DNA of 64,000 nt from Coffea arabica (Eukaryota > Streptophyta > Magnoliopsida > Gentianales > Rubiaceae): NCBI RefSeq assembly GCF_036785885.1, contig NC_092322.1:13166466-13230465 (forward strand), read 5' to 3'. How positions within the stretch are numbered: position 1 is the stretch's first letter; every line of letters begins with the position of its first letter. The position numbers and the translations under genes were made by a program. This document shows positions 4,821-62,831 of the stretch, piece by piece. The notes below the pieces were generated by a model. It was not told the DNA's origin. It saw nothing but the letters and a program-made list of their open reading frames with translations, and made no database searches.

Positions 4821-7800
4821 ATATTGAAGGTAAAAACTAAAAAAGAAAAAGGTGTAGTATCCAAAATTGTGGCTCCCACTTATTGACTTGGATTAGATAA
4901 ACTAAAGTAAATTAGATGCAAGATTTAGGGAAATTGCAAGGTAAGGAGGAGGACAAAAAGAGGAAACACTTGGGAACTCAAGCTAAGAGGGGTCTATGTG
5001 GAAATAATAAAGAAATGAATAAAAATCATTATGCTCAAATGATGATGATAATGGAATTAATTGTAGTAGAAGGAATCATTAATGAAGCATGTATCATTAA
5101 GCTATGGTGTGTTGGTTGGAGATAGGAAGGGTGGACCAAGTGACTACTAAAATTTTTCTTTTTGGTCTGTCTTCTTGTGTAGCCATTAGTCAAGTACAAA
5201 AGAAAGAAAAAGATGAGAATGAAAATCAAAGGCACACGAGAGGTAATGAATTGAAATGAGTTTGAGTTAACTGCCCCACCACCAAATTATTTTCCTATCA
5301 AGGGGTGTGAGAACTTTGTTGGGCCATGCATGAGGGCTATTTCAATGGAAGACACACTGTCCTTTAGGACTAAGCCTGCTACAACAATAAATACAAACCA
5401 CAAGCCCAGCTGTCTCCAAGTCACAACCTCACAGAAAAGAAAGCCATTAATTGCAAAAACTTACAAGCTATTTTTGCACTAACCAATTCTGCTGTTTGTG
5501 TCCTATTTATTTTGTCTGCCACCTCCACAGGGAGGAAGATGGAAGAAGAAGAGGAGGAGTAGGAGAGAAATGTACCCTATATGGTTTTGTCCTGTTTAAC
5601 TCAACGTTTCTATGCAGACTTTGGCATGAATGGATGACTTGTAACAAGTTTAGCGGCTATATTTTCTTCTTGATGTTCTCTCCGATTAGAAAAAGACCGA
5701 ATTTGTCTGATTTCTCTTCCACGGGAGAGTTGGAGGAGTTCCAGAGAAAAGGAGGAGAAAATAGTTCTAAAGAGAAGGAGAGGCAGAGGGCATTGACACA
5801 TTTAAATTGACAACTTTCTTTTTTCTCATCATCCTTACTATGCTTTTAACCTGTACGTTAGAACCCTAATCTCAAAAAGAATTTTATTTGTCTATAAGTT
5901 CCAAACGTTCACATAACAAGCGGTAGACAAATCAAACTAAAACACAAGAAATCTCATTATCAGATTAGCTTTCCTTTTACTCGTAGAAAAAAGCATCAGA
6001 TTTTTAGTTGAACAGTTCTTTGTGTGCTTCTTTAGACCGGTCATCGACATCAAATTTGAAAAAAAATCTTTCTTGGGCTGTCAAGTTTTAAGAGGATTTA
6101 TTGCCAAATTGCAGCTACCTGTTCTACCCTATTGCCAGATTAAGTTGTAGCTCACTATTTGCAGTTGAATCAGTAACCTTTCAAGGTGAATGTTAACATC
6201 ATATGTAGCAGCAGCCTCGTAGTTTTGTATACCACATTGATTAGGATGACAAACAAGATAACTTAGTTTGATACGTTTCCTCAGTTGTCTTCAAGGACAA
6301 TCAACTTGACAAAGTCAAGAAAAGCCAATCTTTTTGGTTTGCTGTCTATTTGCTTTCCTAATTTAGAGATTTACTACTGATTCCTGCGGATGATGACAGA
6401 CTATGACTACAAGCACAGCGCTAATACATAAGTTAAACTGTTTGGATGATTGCTTCTTTTTTTTTTTTTTTTTTTGAGTGCCTTTTACAAAAAATTTTAT
6501 TATGGCTTTTTTTGTTATTGATAAATATGTTATAAGATTAAAAAAATGTAATGTAATTGAAAATCAGTGCATAACAAATAAAAAAAAAAACCTTTTTGGG
6601 TTCTTTCTTGAAAGGAAAAAAAAATGAAAATTTAGGGAGGGGGGCTGGCAAAAACTCATCTATGAGAAAGCCATTGCTTGGAATGCATAGAAAACATTTG
6701 ATAGCATCCAAAAAAATAAACATTTACCAGCCATATAGTATTACAGAGTAGGTATTTTACAGCCCTAATCAAAATGAATTAGTTGATGCAAGAAAACAAG
6801 AGGTGGGATCCATTTGCAGCTGTATCTGCAGGTGAGGCTGCAACAACAACCTTTTCTTGTCATTTCCATAACAGAATTGTTATGTCATCCATGCTACTTG
6901 CTCAATCTATTTGGTTCCTTTGTGTTTACCTTTTTTTTTTCTCTTTATTTAATCTTTTCCTCTTCTTCTTGGGAAGAAAAGGGCCCTTTTAATTTTTCCC
7001 TCTTCTTTTTAACGTTTATGAGGTGTCCTTGTTCCCATCCTTCTTTTTGTACCCCCAACCCCACAAAAAAAAAAAAAAAAAGGGAAAACCACTACTTGAA
7101 TCAGCTTGTAATTTGTTTGGATTTTTTTTTTTGTAAATTTTTTATTTTCTTGCATCATCAACACAGTTTTCAGTTACCTTTTTATCTGATATGTATCATA
7201 TCAAAAAAGTACTACAGTATTTTTTTATATAAAAAAAAAATTTTATCCCAAATAATAAATTGATGGAATTGGTCAAGGGCAAGCATTAGAAGAGGGCATT
7301 TAATTAATGCATACATACAGCATGAAACACATGAATGGAATCTCACCAAAAAGCCAGTAGTGATAGATAGACTAGAAATAGAATGCCTCAAGTGATCATC
7401 AAGATAAACAAGTGCACGTGTGAAAGAGAGGGCCTTCAATATCAATAACAATAAATGCCAACTTCAATCACCAAGCAACTGTTTCTTATTGGCATCATTC
7501 TCTTTATCTTCTGATATGATTCTCCGTTTATTACTCTACACTAGTTTGGTTTGCACTGTGTATCTATTATAGTAGCTGTTTAGTTTTGGTGCAAACATTT
7601 ACTCCACTAGACCACTCTTTTTTAAGCTTCAATACCAACTTTTACAAACTTTTATGGGCTAACAAACCTGATTTGGTGACATGTATGAATTAGGGTAGGG
7701 TCTTTTTCTCCATGAGATGAGCCCGGCGTTAAACGCAAAACACCACCCTTGCCTGCTTTTGGATCTCAAATAGAATATAATGATGTGCCAGCCAGGGTCA

Positions 7801-52180: not shown

Positions 52181-52760
52181 TGTTAAACTAACTATGTACA
52201 TGTGAATCGATCTACTGCGCAGCGAAAATTTAAATATACTTATCTCTAATCATTGTTATCAAGCACAAGTTGATCTCTTCTTGTATTTTTGACTTCTTTT
52301 TGTCTATTTTAACAATATAAAATATGTAGAAGAAGGAAACGTAGAAAGAGAATTTAGAGTAAGAGTCTTCTAGATTATGCCTAACCCAAAAGTGTACAAT
52401 TGATGGAATACCACAGGCTATTTATAGGATAGGCTAAGGATCCTTACTGACAAATACAAAAATCCCTAGGGTTTCCTTCCATCAAGGAAATCTTGCCAAA
52501 ATTCATAACTGAAATTAATATTTTCTGACCAATTGATTGATTAACTGATTGAATAAGATATCAATTGACAATAGATATCAATCAATCACTAACAAATGAA
52601 ATATACTAATTAATTATTGACAAAATGTCAATCAATTAATCAGGATACCAATCACCAATCATTGCCTAATGGGAGATACCAATTAATTGTCAATCAATCA
52701 ATTAGAATATCAATTAATCATGTGGGTCATAATTTGCCTCTAAAGGAGGTAAGTCTGACA
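52181..52760 (-). repeat. 3' LTR (element orientation)
   Basis: Begins TGTTAAACTAACTATG and ends AAGTCTGACA on the plus strand; matches 57774-58349 almost throughout. Its AT-rich half is full of ATCAATTGA/TCAATCAAT words. Confidence 0.93.
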
Positions 52761-57773: not shown

Positions 57774-58349
57774 TGTTAAACTAACTATGTACATGTGAAT
57801 GTACTACGTAGCGGAAATTTAAATATACTTACCTCTAACCATTGTTGTCAAGTACAAGTTGATCTTTTCTTATATCTTTGATTTCTTCTTGTCTATTCTA
57901 ACAATATAAAATATGTAGAAGAAGGAAAAGTAGAAAGAGAATTTAGAGTAAGGATCTTCTAGCCTATGCCTAACCCAAAAGTGTACAATTGATGGAATAC
58001 TACAGGCTATTTATAGGATAGGCTAGGGACCCTTACTGACAAATACAAAAATCCCTAGGGTTTCCTTCCATCAAGGAAATCTTGCCAAAATTCATAACTG
58101 AAATTAATATTTTCTGACCAATTGATTGATTAACTGATTGAATAAGATATCAATTGACAATAGATATCAATCAATCACTAACAAATGGAATATACTAATT
58201 AATTATTGACAAAATGTCAATCAATTAATCAAGATACCAATCATCAATCATTGCCTAATGGGAGATACCAATTAATTGTCAATCAATTAATTAGAATATC
58301 AATCAATCATGTGGGTCATAATTTGCCTCTAAAGGAGGTAAGTCTTACA
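57774..58349 (-). repeat. 5' LTR (element orientation)
   Basis: Plus-strand start TGTTAAACTAACTATG, end TAAGTCTTACA. It lies next to the primer binding site. Confidence 0.93.
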
Positions 58350-58818: not shown

Positions 58819-61671
58819 TCACTTTGGAGGCTGGCTGAAAAGTGAGTAGTATGCTCCATTTGGACCTTTAGCCATCAGAGAAGAATGAGTCCCTTTCTCT
58901 ACTACTTTACCTTTGTCCAAAACCGCTATTATATCACAGCACTGGATTGTACTTAGCCTATGCGCTACAACCACACTAGTCCTTCCCACCATCACTCCCT
59001 CAAGTGCACCCTGTAGGAGCTTTTCTGATTGACTGTCAAGTGCACTTGTTGCTTCATCCAACAATAATATTGCTGGATTTTTAAGTATAGCAACAATGGC
59101 AATACGCTGCTTCTGACCACCAGATAGCTGCAATCCCCTGTCCCCGCACCATGTATCATATCCGTCCTGCAATGCTGCAACGAAGTCCTGAGCATTGGCA
59201 GCCTTAGAAGCCACAATGATCTCTGACTCGTTTACATCCTCTGATGCACAATATGCTAGATTTTGGCGTATGGTGCCTTCAAATAATGGGGGCTCCTGGC
59301 TAACGAGTGCTATGTGTCGTCTTGAACATCTTAAGTGATATGATTTTATATCTTGACCATCAATCATCACAGTTCCTCCAAGTGGACTATAGAACCTCTC
59401 AATTAAGCTGATTATGGTTGACATTCCTGAGCCACTTTGTCCAACCACTGCTGTTGACTTTCCTGCCTCAAATGTGAGTGAGAATCCTTTGAAAATGATG
59501 ACGTCCTGCCTGGCAGGATATGCGAAATCAACATCTGTTAGTGTGGCTTTAGTCCCACATCGCTAATAGCAAAGGAATTCTTTCCTTTGCTACTTATAAA
59601 TATAGGGATCCTATGATAGGATTAAGTGCACCACTCAAGAAAATATTATATGGGTTATTAGCTTTTTGAGTGCACTACTCAAAGCCCAAGAAGCTAATAG
59701 CTCATATAATACTCTCTTGAGTGGTGCACTTAATCCTTAGGACACCTGTATTTATAGGTAACAAAGAAAAGAATTTTCTTTGCTATTAGCGATTTGGGAC
59801 TAAAACCGCACTAACAACATCATGCAACTCAAGTTACTCAGCATGGCCTATGATCTTTTCAGTCATGTGGCCTTTTCGGTCTTCAGGATCAATTTGGGAG
59901 TACCGGTCCTGAATTGCAAATACATACCTAACTGCATCTGAACCTGCAGCTAGGTCACTAGTCATTGTTCCTGCATTAGCAATGCAACGACCAGTGCTTA
60001 TCAGCATCAAAAGAGTTTGGAAAAGTGCTTTTGCTCCTAGATAGCCATCGGCAATGAGTTTACCCCCGTACCAAGAATCAAGAGCCCACGTTAATGTCAA
60101 CAAACTAGAGGATACCCCAAGCACAATACCAGCAAACCATGATTGGCGAATACTTTCTTGTCGTGGTCCTTCTTGTGCTTTTTCGAGCATATGGAGAATT
60201 CGGGCTTGGCAGCTGAAGGCTGTGACAGTTCGAATATTGGTGACAGCTTCTGCTGCAAGCTTACTACTTTCTTCGTGAGCTTTAATGGCCTTTTTTGACA
60301 TGATTTTCAGGAGAGCAAACATACCATAATCGCAAAAAATGAGAAGGGGTTGAGTGGCTAGTATCACCAACGCAAGCCTCCATGCAATAACAAGGCCCAA
60401 GGTGCATGCAATGGCCATTGCCGAAAAAGCATTGATGAGTAGCCCCATGCGATCACCCGCTATTGAGTAATGACCGCACCTGTGCATGCCAAGTAAACGT
60501 CACTTAGATACGAGAGTTCAGCTACAGAATGTGCATTTTTTCCAACAGGTAATGCAACAAAGTTGTTCTTTTCAGTATATTTTCTAACTTGTATCTTAAA
60601 ATGAGTCATTTCTTAATGATTAGTTCAAAGAGAGCTACAGGGTAACATGTTCCAAGTATACAGATTTGCACAGTTTCCATTCAAGCCTGGATTGGTTCAA
60701 GCCTGTAGCACCAGACTAATAGGATTTTTTTTCTCCATTTTGGTTGGACATCTCTAGGATAGTTCAGAAAATAGTTTTCCATAGTGAACCTTGGTTCTGT
60801 TCAGCACTATATGGCATGAGGACAATAAGACCAGCATAGTGATAATTAGCCTGTTTTACAGGCAAATCATCTAAAAGTGAGCATTGAAGGCTCACTGTCT
60901 TCATGAAGTCCTCCAAAATAAATCTAGTAAATTATGGATTTCAATAGATATTAGGATAACTGGTTTTAAATAAAAATATATGTTTCATTTTGAACAGGCG
61001 AAATGGATCCTTAAATGAACTAGACCAATAGTCGAAAGTTTCAAACATAGACTTGGTTGTAACAAATCTAAACTGGTTTATCATGTAATCAGAGCCAACA
61101 CTGAGTAAGCCATTGTTACAAGATTAGATTCAATACTCAAAGCTGCATTAAATGATGTTTCCCAGGGAAGAATCCTACTTACCACATTGGTATCATTGGC
61201 TAGTCTGGAGCAAACAACACCAGTTGTGTTCTCATCCTGATCAAACCACCCAATTTCAAAGCTGAGCATCTTGGCAACCATCATTTCTCGGATTCTGTTG
61301 GTCAAGTGCTCCCCCATTGATGCAAAATTATAATGCTGGCATATGTTTATAAACACTGAGAACAATGCAAGCCCCACAAAGCACAAGGCATATACTTCTG
61401 TCTTCTGCTTGATCTCTTTATGATCCGTCAAAAAATACACTGATATCATCGACCCCATGGCACATGCATAAGATGGTTGAATTGCACCAAATAACATAGC
61501 ACTTACACATCCCGCTGTTGCCTGCCTCCATTCAGGAAAATTAATTGCCAGTAGTCTTCTGAATGAGGGTACTGAAAAAACTTGATCACTAGAACTTGTT
61601 CCATTGTCTGCTCTATGGCTTAGACAATTCATTAGACAATCTAACATTATTATGCATTTTTTTTTCAACAA
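58819..61671 (-). pseudogene. ABCB (MDR/P-glycoprotein, ABCB15-like) relic, C-terminal half
   Basis: Related to plant full-size ABCB transporters. Three pieces remain. 61640-61183 is the start of the second membrane domain ([18 protein letters not shown]...SRLANDTNV). 60479-59817 is the rest of that domain ([11 protein letters not shown]...[17 protein letters not shown]). 59535-58819 is the second nucleotide-binding domain, with [22 protein letters not shown] and [10 protein letters not shown]. Damage: a frameshift near 60463-60470 before GDRM; an in-frame TAA at 59834-59836; a 281-bp foldback insertion between the codons for HDV and DFAYP; the Walker A lysine changed to Met (GQSGSGMST, 59422-59424); and one residue lost after QRIAI. 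The first transporter half is absent downstream of a LINE insertion, unless it lies beyond the window. Not expected to make a working pump. Confidence 0.9.
59536..59816. mobile_element. Palindromic foldback element with snRNA-promoter-like arms
   Basis: A 281-bp near-palindrome with ends TGTTAGTG/CACTAACA, flanked by an exact 5-bp duplication ACATC (59531-59535 and 59817-59821). Removing it and one ACATC rejoins the ABCB frame exactly. Each arm carries a close match to the plant snRNA upstream sequence element and a TATA box: GTCCCACATCG (59552-59562) with TTATAAATA (59594-59602), and on the minus strand GTCCCAAATCG (59800-59790) with CTATAAATA (59757-59749). There is no coding capacity. Confidence 0.85.
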
Positions 61672-62745
61672 ACGATAATATCTTTATATATATTAACACT
61701 TGATAATACAAGGATTAATTACAAAAGGGGGCAACAGCCCCTCCATCTATTCTATTTGCTTCTATCAACCAACTTGGGAAGTCATTTACCCAATCTATGT
61801 CATTAATTAGCTTTGATGCAAAAAGTGCTAGCCTATGACTTGCTATATTAGATGTTCTAGGCACCTAAGATATTATGCAGTAATCAAAATCTAGTGTTAG
61901 ATCCTCAATGTCTTCCAAGATGGTTGCTAGAATCCCATCCTACACATTGTTGCATCTGATGTAGTCTGTGGCCATCTTGCAATCTGATAGGATAGCTATC
62001 TTCCTCCAGCCTACTTCGCGTGCCATTTGGAGAGCTAATCTAATAGTTAATGTTTCCTCCATTAGAGCTTCACCCTTCTTTCTTTCTACTACTCCCTTTG
62101 CTCTTATAATCTTGCCTGTCCGGTGCCTTGCAACTATTCCTTTTCCTGTTCTGATCATCCTTGCATTGAGTGCAGCATCTGTACTGAATCGGATGATTCC
62201 TTCTACTGATGGTACCTTTACCTGTTCCTTCTGATTCGCAGCCATTCCTTTCTGTTTGGTAGCTCCTTCCTGCTGTAACACCTCTTCATATTCGAGCCAT
62301 TCTTGTTGTGCTCTCAAAACTATATCTCTTGCTTCACCCCTTTGCTGTTCAAAAACCACATTGCCCCTTGCTTTCCAAATCTGCCATAGGATGTTTACTG
62401 TCAAGTTGATATGCTTCATCCCATCTTCCTTTGATCCTGTCTGAGCTACCACCTCCCCCCATCTCCACAAATTACATTGTAAGTCTCTCAGCTTCTCCCA
62501 TCTAATCGGTGCTAGTTTCCACACTATTTGGGCTCTTGGGCATGTGAAGAACATGTGTTCAACTGTTTCTACTTCTTCCCCACAAATTGTACAGATCTTG
62601 TCCCCTTTACCAGTTCTTTTATAGATAGCCTCTTTCACAGCTATACCTTCCTGCAAACACTTCCAGTGAAGTGTTTGAGTATGTGCTTTAGATTCAGTTT
62701 CAAAAGTTGTTTCCAGATGCTATGCTTCCTAATTTCCCAGCTTGT
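61660..62745 (-). mobile_element. 5'-truncated LINE retrotransposon
   Basis: Non-LTR element remnant flanked by an exact 18-bp target duplication (61642-61659 and 62746-62763, starting TAACATTATTATGC). On the minus strand it ends in a short poly-A tract. It encodes the end of the plant LINE polyprotein: a reverse-transcriptase zinc-binding segment (ICTICGEEVETVEHMFFTC; 62656 downward) and an RNase H-like domain (FSTDAALNAR...EETLTIRLAL...ILSDCKMATDYI). An in-frame stop follows at 61940, and VPRTSNIASHRLALFA of the RNase H C-terminus continues after a second stop. Inactive. It lies just upstream of the ABCB relic exon. Confidence 0.92.
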
Positions 62746-62831
62746 TAACATTATTATGCATTTGATTTTAAAAAAATTGACATATTATTAATTAGCTTAG
62801 ATGATTTTATTCTCCATTATGAATGTTAGAC

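Follow-up and report, generated by a model that had tools for sequence, protein, structure and literature searches.

In plant small nuclear RNA (snRNA) genes, according to the available text of PMC9845283, the upstream sequence element (USE) has the consensus RTCCCACATCG and stands four helical turns from the TATA box where transcription is by RNA polymerase II (Pol II), and one turn closer in the U6 and U3 RNA genes. Unusual termini of long terminal repeats (LTRs) are the subject of a Rosaceae study of TGTT/AACA ends, as far as its available text goes (PMC5659011). Here we analyse a 281-bp near-palindrome of Coffea arabica that holds a USE-like box and a TATA box in each arm. It lies in a window of 64 000 nucleotides (C13:13166466–13230465), the whole stretch of DNA that was analysed, in a genome of 1.198 Gb and 131 contigs. 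An initial annotation of the window had proposed a mobile palindrome with snRNA-type promoters. Our reading, to which we give a probability of about 0.8, is that the palindrome is an inverted dimer of Ty1-copia LTR U3 (unique 3′) ends, inserted by integrase, whose USE–TATA pairs would be the retroelement's own core promoter.

The palindrome and the LTRs of a Ty1-copia group

The near-palindrome at 59536–59816 starts with TGTTAGTG and ends with CACTAACA. Its TG...CA termini and its 5-bp duplication, ACATC on both sides, are as initially annotated, and its symmetry is borne out by the arm-against-arm alignment (119 identities in 133 aligned positions), by blastn of the palindrome against its own complement (236/288) and by folding as RNA, which gives −175.4 kcal/mol against −58.4 ± 4.6 for 200 shuffles (z = −25). 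The features of the element, in window coordinates, are these.

59531–59535: left copy of the 5-bp target site duplication, ACATC; the C14 copy has the same site and duplication
59536–59671, plus strand: left arm, approximately positions 1–136 of a Ty1-copia LTR (U3 and the probable start of R), reading inward
59552–59562, plus strand: USE-like box GTCCCACATCG, an exact match to the consensus, at arm positions 17–27
59595–59602, plus strand: TATAAATA of the left arm, 32 bp after the USE box, at arm position 60
59626, plus strand: predicted inward transcript start of the left arm, placed 31 nt after the first TATA base as in three U1 genes of the genome
59669–59686: palindrome centre, 18 nt separating the inner arms
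59725, minus strand: predicted inward transcript start of the right arm, placed likewise by the 31-nt distance that the three U1 genes show
59749–59756, minus strand: TATAAATA of the right arm, 33 bp after the USE-like box, at arm position 61
59790–59800, minus strand: USE-like box GTCCCAAATCG, with one change, at arm positions 17–27
59681–59816, minus strand: right arm, approximately the same LTR positions 1–136, inverted
59817–59821: right copy of the target site duplication, ACATC

The boxes are as the initial annotation had them, one exact and one with a single change. Its equal gap of about 32 bases is about right in size and unequal in fact, being 32 bp on the left and 33 bp on the right, and the promoters that its title called divergent are convergent, both pointing inward. 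The USE motif by itself is not significant in the window, where it has 4 matches with at most two mismatches against 4.95 expected by chance; what goes beyond chance is the palindrome itself and the repeated occurrence of the two motifs as a pair in LTRs of other parts of the genome. Rfam gave no match in the window at gathering score, a paralogous empty site sought within the window with the two flanks joined as query gave self-matches only, and a 16-base piece had no match in the viral contigs scanned.

Searching the genome with the element yielded 92 matches from the best 40 of 522 candidates, with many places entered once per arm; many of these matches span one arm length only and come in same-strand pairs. 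Blastn finds the arms in all 20 of the loci that were fetched (L009–L028), as is expected of loci picked from the earlier matches. There an arm corresponds to the first ~136 bp of LTRs: same-direction repeats of 392–404 bp bound six copies at four sites (L011–L014, L022 and L024), and the LTRs of L016–L018 are longer than this. The 3′ ends of the LTRs read CTAACA, as in CCAGTCCTAACA, and the 5′ copies are then followed by AACTGGTATCAGA or a sequence near it, a primer site that we take to be tRNA-Met-like. Full copies are flanked by 5-bp duplications, read by eye from the flanks (AGGGT in L011, ATTGC in L012 and L014, ATTTC in L024); the flank duplication of L022 has one mismatch, and the L013 flanks gave no resolved duplication. 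Frames of three copies match copia-type RVT_2, rve, Retrotran_gag_2, gag_pre-integrs or an SH3-like polymerase domain. The palindrome has the marks of a Ty1-copia LTR derivative, with arms homologous to the LTRs of elements that carry copia gag-pol, and with TG...CA ends and a 5-bp duplication as in the full copies.

Mapped with one LTR as a ruler, LTR positions 1–125 lie forward at element positions 1–124 and inverted at 161–281, with 89% and 83% identity. Both outer ends of the palindrome are U3 (TGTTAGTG), whereas a normal LTR of the group, like a normal copia element, is bounded by one U3 end and one U5 end (CCAGTCCTAACA); with U3 at both ends the palindrome is therefore a derivative and not a normal LTR or element. 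It is not a solo LTR or a terminal-repeat retrotransposon in miniature (TRIM) either, as these have a whole LTR, a TRIM also a primer site and a polypurine tract, and here the LTR positions past ~136 are absent. Since the arms are LTR starts, what looked like two 'snRNA promoters' is a head-to-head pair of LTR promoters. The initial view of a product of mobile-element integration, with USE and TATA at about Pol II-type spacing, is supported by all this, and that of a separate snRNA-promoter transposon is abandoned.

The USE–TATA layout in LTRs and in snRNA genes

Conservation was measured on 33 LTR rows hand-chosen from L009–L025 (leaving out L026–L028 and the third L016 LTR), which became 32 after merging identicals. 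TATAAATA is the most conserved 8-mer in them, with a mean commonest-base share of 0.996, and TCCCACATCG has 0.956; the stretches before, between and after the boxes (positions 1–16, 28–59 and 68–136) have means of 0.81, 0.85 and 0.82.

Genome-wide counts take strict matches only. The pattern TCCCACATCG-N20-50-TATAAATA has 886 matches (441 + 445), and its reversed control 0 + 1. One hundred of the 886 were listed, from C1 and from C2 to 42.5 Mb, and the remaining figures of this paragraph refer to them. The gap is 33 in 71, 34 in 27, 32 in one and 27 in one, and 66 of the sites fall into same-strand pairs 4.0–5.6 kb apart. The rows are not independent, since 23 of them lie in C2:3.4–4.3 Mb and belong to one family. 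Spacers of 45 rows (35 from C1 and 10 chosen from C2) were clustered at 65% identity into approximately 11 unlike groups, one of which is the U1 genes; this cut is loose, shuffled spacers reaching a median of 0.48, a 95th percentile of 0.61 and a maximum of 0.71. Conserved spacing, which the initial annotation had put up as a check on copies of the palindrome, extends to LTR families with spacers that cannot be aligned to each other.

Twenty places were sampled, 12 of them laid out around motif pairs. The motif is held by a repeat in 14, which is not an unbiased rate, and related copia reverse transcriptase (RT) is found nearby in 15; L038 has a distant RT match at its edge only, and L036, L048 and L052 have neither a motif-holding repeat nor related copia RT. 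Among 20 carriers, some of them copies of the first set, RT identity ranges between 44% and 98%. Read by eye, the sampled LTR pairs have the USE box anywhere from ~16 to ~110 bp from the LTR start, yet 33–34 bp from the TATA box. As the distance to TATA is kept while the distance to the LTR start varies, it is the promoter to which the USE is tied, rather than the terminus recognised by integrase.

Two of the fetched places deserve separate mention. In both outer LTRs of L016 a single TATA box is preceded by two USE-like boxes, which stand 37 bp from each other, and the nearer box alone has the 33-bp gap. L048 has near 4976, on the minus strand, a USE, 33 bp and a TATA box, with no LTR pair found and with the downstream sequence masked.

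Among the listed sites are three U1 snRNA genes (L045, one of the twenty sampled places, with 147 bits in Rfam, L056 and L057), in which the gap is 32 or 33 and the first TATA base lies, by our own arithmetic, 31 nt before the U1 start. With these genes and the available text of PMC9845283 as the yardstick, the 32 and 33 bp of the palindrome agree with plant Pol II snRNA-type spacing and not with the Pol III type; the USE that such promoters carry is exact in the left arm and one change away in the right. At the sequence level, the layout of plant Pol II snRNA promoters is present in many copia LTRs of the genome. Pol II would transcribe such LTRs by way of the USE-binding (SNAPc-like) snRNA machinery. 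We see roughly even odds for the broader proposition that several Ty1-copia lineages of this plant use genuine snRNA-type Pol II promoters, served by USE-binding machinery and not by ordinary mRNA activators, and that copia integrase can insert complementary DNA (cDNA) with two U3 ends, which would leave short hairpin loci with convergent snRNA-type promoters.

The USE–TATA pair of the LTRs could instead be a distinct Pol II element with no more than a likeness to the snRNA USE, or could have been kept by descent without function; we consider this quite possible, if short of an even chance. It is favoured by the first of the observations that follow, all of which count against our own reading. 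The best 150 of 8872 RVT_2 candidates were taken by Pfam score and are not a random sample; all 13 of the high-scoring copia RT hits checked among them by eye (8 on C1 and 5 on C2 below 42.55 Mb) are without a strict USE–TATA site within 10 kb, and since none is near a site the layout is confined to some copia lineages and is not general for copia. The initially proposed check, whether USE and TATA are kept above their surroundings, comes out clearly for the two cores given above and less so for the full 11-base USE window, whose first base is variable: at 0.92 it is not outstanding, 16 of the 126 same-length windows, itself included, being as conserved. Spacing also drifts, to 29 bp in one L013 LTR, as it can in old copies, and to 27 in L052. 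With one change in the USE of the right arm and a gap of 32 in the left arm, the promoters of the window copy may be decayed. Against mere resemblance, the R at the first base, TCCCACATCG, the fixed gap and TATAAATA all match the U1 genes of the genome, and the layout recurs over the approximately 11 unlike spacer groups and among carriers as distant in RT as noted above.

Should the boxes in the LTRs prove to be true snRNA promoters, the constitutive machinery of spliceosomal RNAs would drive part of the plant copia load. Plant snRNA promoters tend to give short transcripts that are not polyadenylated, and the question would then be how copia elements make a 5-kb polyadenylated RNA from promoters of the snRNA type.

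Integration, age and alternative origins

A pattern of 34 bases from the LTR start, allowing at most three mismatches, was searched over the 1.198 Gb and gave 13 sites genome-wide, with none in the reversed control. Two of these are the LTRs of one C2 copy, four belong to the C7/C8 pair, and seven are ends of the inverted groups C13/C14 and C17/C18. The inverted insertion of C17/C18 (1341 and 1265 bp, with TCACC duplicated) has one LTR in forward direction, a second that is inverted and leads into a primer-like stretch, and two more LTR-start pieces of opposite direction, one of which is without the U3 start in C18. In each of the C13, C14, C17 and C18 copies, the LTR end that abuts the right-hand duplication is U3. 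Inverted integration occurred at least twice, and no multiplying palindrome family is seen in the 13 sites or among the 40 candidates scored. Related copies, for which the initial annotation had asked, do exist in the form of the 13 sites and the LTR relatives; with only one other inverted group found in the subfamily, a mobile palindrome family is not shown.

An arrangement of the opposite orientation was seen in passing: USE-bearing copia LTRs stand back to back ~180 bp apart in L025 (C2:38772198/38772377) and at C2:38799111/38799291. L025 also holds an inverted duplication at 4833–6177 that is 95% identical.

The sister copy on C14 has its insertion at the identical base, with the same ACATC duplication, and the inserted DNA is 451 bp long, made up of five U3 segments in a row that point in differing directions. 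Alignments of the window with C14 that reach into the element from each side, parts of the arms included, have 97.8% identity over 1268 columns and 96.3% over 1997. An insertion site common to the C13 and C14 copies means one insertion older than their split, followed by divergence. Flank comparison finds common insertion sites likewise in C17/C18 and C7/C8, and the three pairs may be homeologues or haplotypes. Copia copies of 5.1 to 9.5 kb, three of the four with extra length, also stand at matching sites (L012/L014 on C14/C13 and L022/L024 on C8/C7) and offer a means of dating when the sister copies split.

Arms A (left) and B (right) of the window differ at 15 of 129 positions, 13 of the differences being transitions, a proportion that would be expected of long-silenced DNA. 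The LTR pairs of the six full copies differ by 0.098–0.125, and LTRs at the same site in sister copies by 0.068–0.091. On the simplest reading of these distances the arms would have been identical at insertion, at about the time of the full-copy insertions and ahead of the separation of the sister copies, and would have diverged since, the C14 copy being reshuffled later.

For the origin of the two ends, we propose that aberrant copia cDNA, made by strand switch, fold-back copying or end joining in reverse transcription, would bear U3 at each terminus, and that integrase would treat it as if it had a U3/U5 pair, leaving the 5-bp duplication. The clean duplication at U3/U3 ends suggests DNA that already had two U3 ends when it was inserted. 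Insertions of this kind are a small natural record of the ends that copia integrase accepts.

The evidence is not all on one side. Window arm B is the positional counterpart of the C14 right arm, yet differs from it more (13/129) than window arm A does (8/133). Conversion between arms or inversion would explain this, as they would the chain of five U3 pieces; palindromes rearrange easily, and the C14 arrangement means that rearrangement after insertion did occur in at least one copy. The route of formation moreover rests on two inverted groups, and both of them contain extra reshuffled U3 pieces, which recombination at a later time would account for no less than aberrant cDNA. What landed first may have been an ordinary copia element or a solo LTR, with the inversion arising afterwards at the site by recombination or template switching, an account for which the five mixed segments of C14 speak. 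The U5 end would then need to have been replaced exactly to the last base, and this in two independent groups, and we regard the account as unlikely without being negligible. Insertion of a two-U3 cDNA remains our preferred reading.

What the locus might do today is a further matter. Intact palindrome arms would yield convergent, self-complementary RNA, and convergent transcription, hairpin RNA and small RNAs may arise from the palindrome. From the strong predicted hairpin and the convergent promoters one could go on to a small-RNA source that silences the parent copia family; the locus is old and low in copy, with arm differences mostly transitions as given above, and the parent subfamily is rare in the genome, all of which makes this role improbable. 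Less probable still is a true family of palindromic DNA transposons, resembling miniature inverted-repeat transposable elements (MITEs), mobilised by a transposase and with its ends taken over later by LTR elements: the short length, terminal-inverted-repeat-like arms, TG...CA ends, clean duplication and two independent inverted insertions with 5-bp duplications are as such a family would have them, while the palindromic transposon family of the initial annotation comes down to 13 end-pattern sites, which belong to two ordinary LTR-element insertions and two inverted ones, and the arms are collinear with LTR positions 1–136 and continue in full copies to the LTR end and primer site.

The interrupted gene and comparison with known systems

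The palindrome interrupts a host gene on the minus strand, between two frames of an ATP-binding cassette (ABC) transporter.

58822–59562, minus strand: stop-to-stop frame with the ABC transporter nucleotide-binding domain (PF00005, E 4.3e-27), its first residues within the element
59837–60499, minus strand: stop-to-stop frame with the ABC transporter transmembrane region (PF00664, E 1.5e-21)

It appears to split one exon of this gene, because the C14 frame reads GHVELQDV up to the element and DFAYP continues past it. Beside the duplication, at 59833–59841, the window has 9 bases that are absent in C14 and bring an in-frame stop, at the place where C14 has GHVELQDV, and the nucleotide-binding motif is GSGMST in the window copy and GSGKST in C14. 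Near the interrupted gene is a 300-bp direct repeat of 93% identity (52210–52509 and 57799–58098). A frame with zf-RVT and RVT_3 at 61943–62719, a fragment resembling a long interspersed nuclear element (LINE), lies within ~61672–62746, which the C14 alignment leaves uncovered.

Among the papers listed from an open-access library, none links copia LTRs with snRNA promoters, which is weak evidence of the link being unpublished. The search found no open-access publication on palindromic inverted LTRs in plants and, for head-to-head solo-LTR hairpins, one nematode review only. Searching the literature by sequence returned mostly primer-bearing papers, and by the USE consensus mostly genome-editing papers.

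Of the systems that can be set beside the palindrome, MITEs and foldback elements are likewise short and built as inverted repeats; they differ in that the palindrome's ends and arms are LTR ends and that, in place of many dispersed inverted-repeat copies, two insertion groups were found (weaker copies were possibly missed among the best 40 of 522 candidates). A solo LTR is likewise LTR-derived, with TG...CA ends and a 5-bp duplication, whereas the palindrome has the LTR start alone, twice and inverted. To the U3 of a Ty1-copia (Pseudoviridae) LTR it is alike in arm sequence, TG...CA ends and 5-bp duplication, and its relatives have gag, integrase, RVT_2 and a primer site; the palindrome itself differs by two U3 ends, by having no LTR past ~136 and no primer site or coding region, and by its length of 281 bp. 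With the plant Pol II snRNA promoter of the U1, U2, U4 and U5 type it has in common the USE box and approximately four helical turns to TATA, but here there is no snRNA body downstream, and the layout is found in LTRs and in the palindrome. Sirevirus LTR promoters, in the available text of PMC2829016, have conserved boxes shortly before a conserved TATA box and belong to a copia lineage, as here; their boxes are repeated CGG-CCG palindromes, unlike the snRNA USE.

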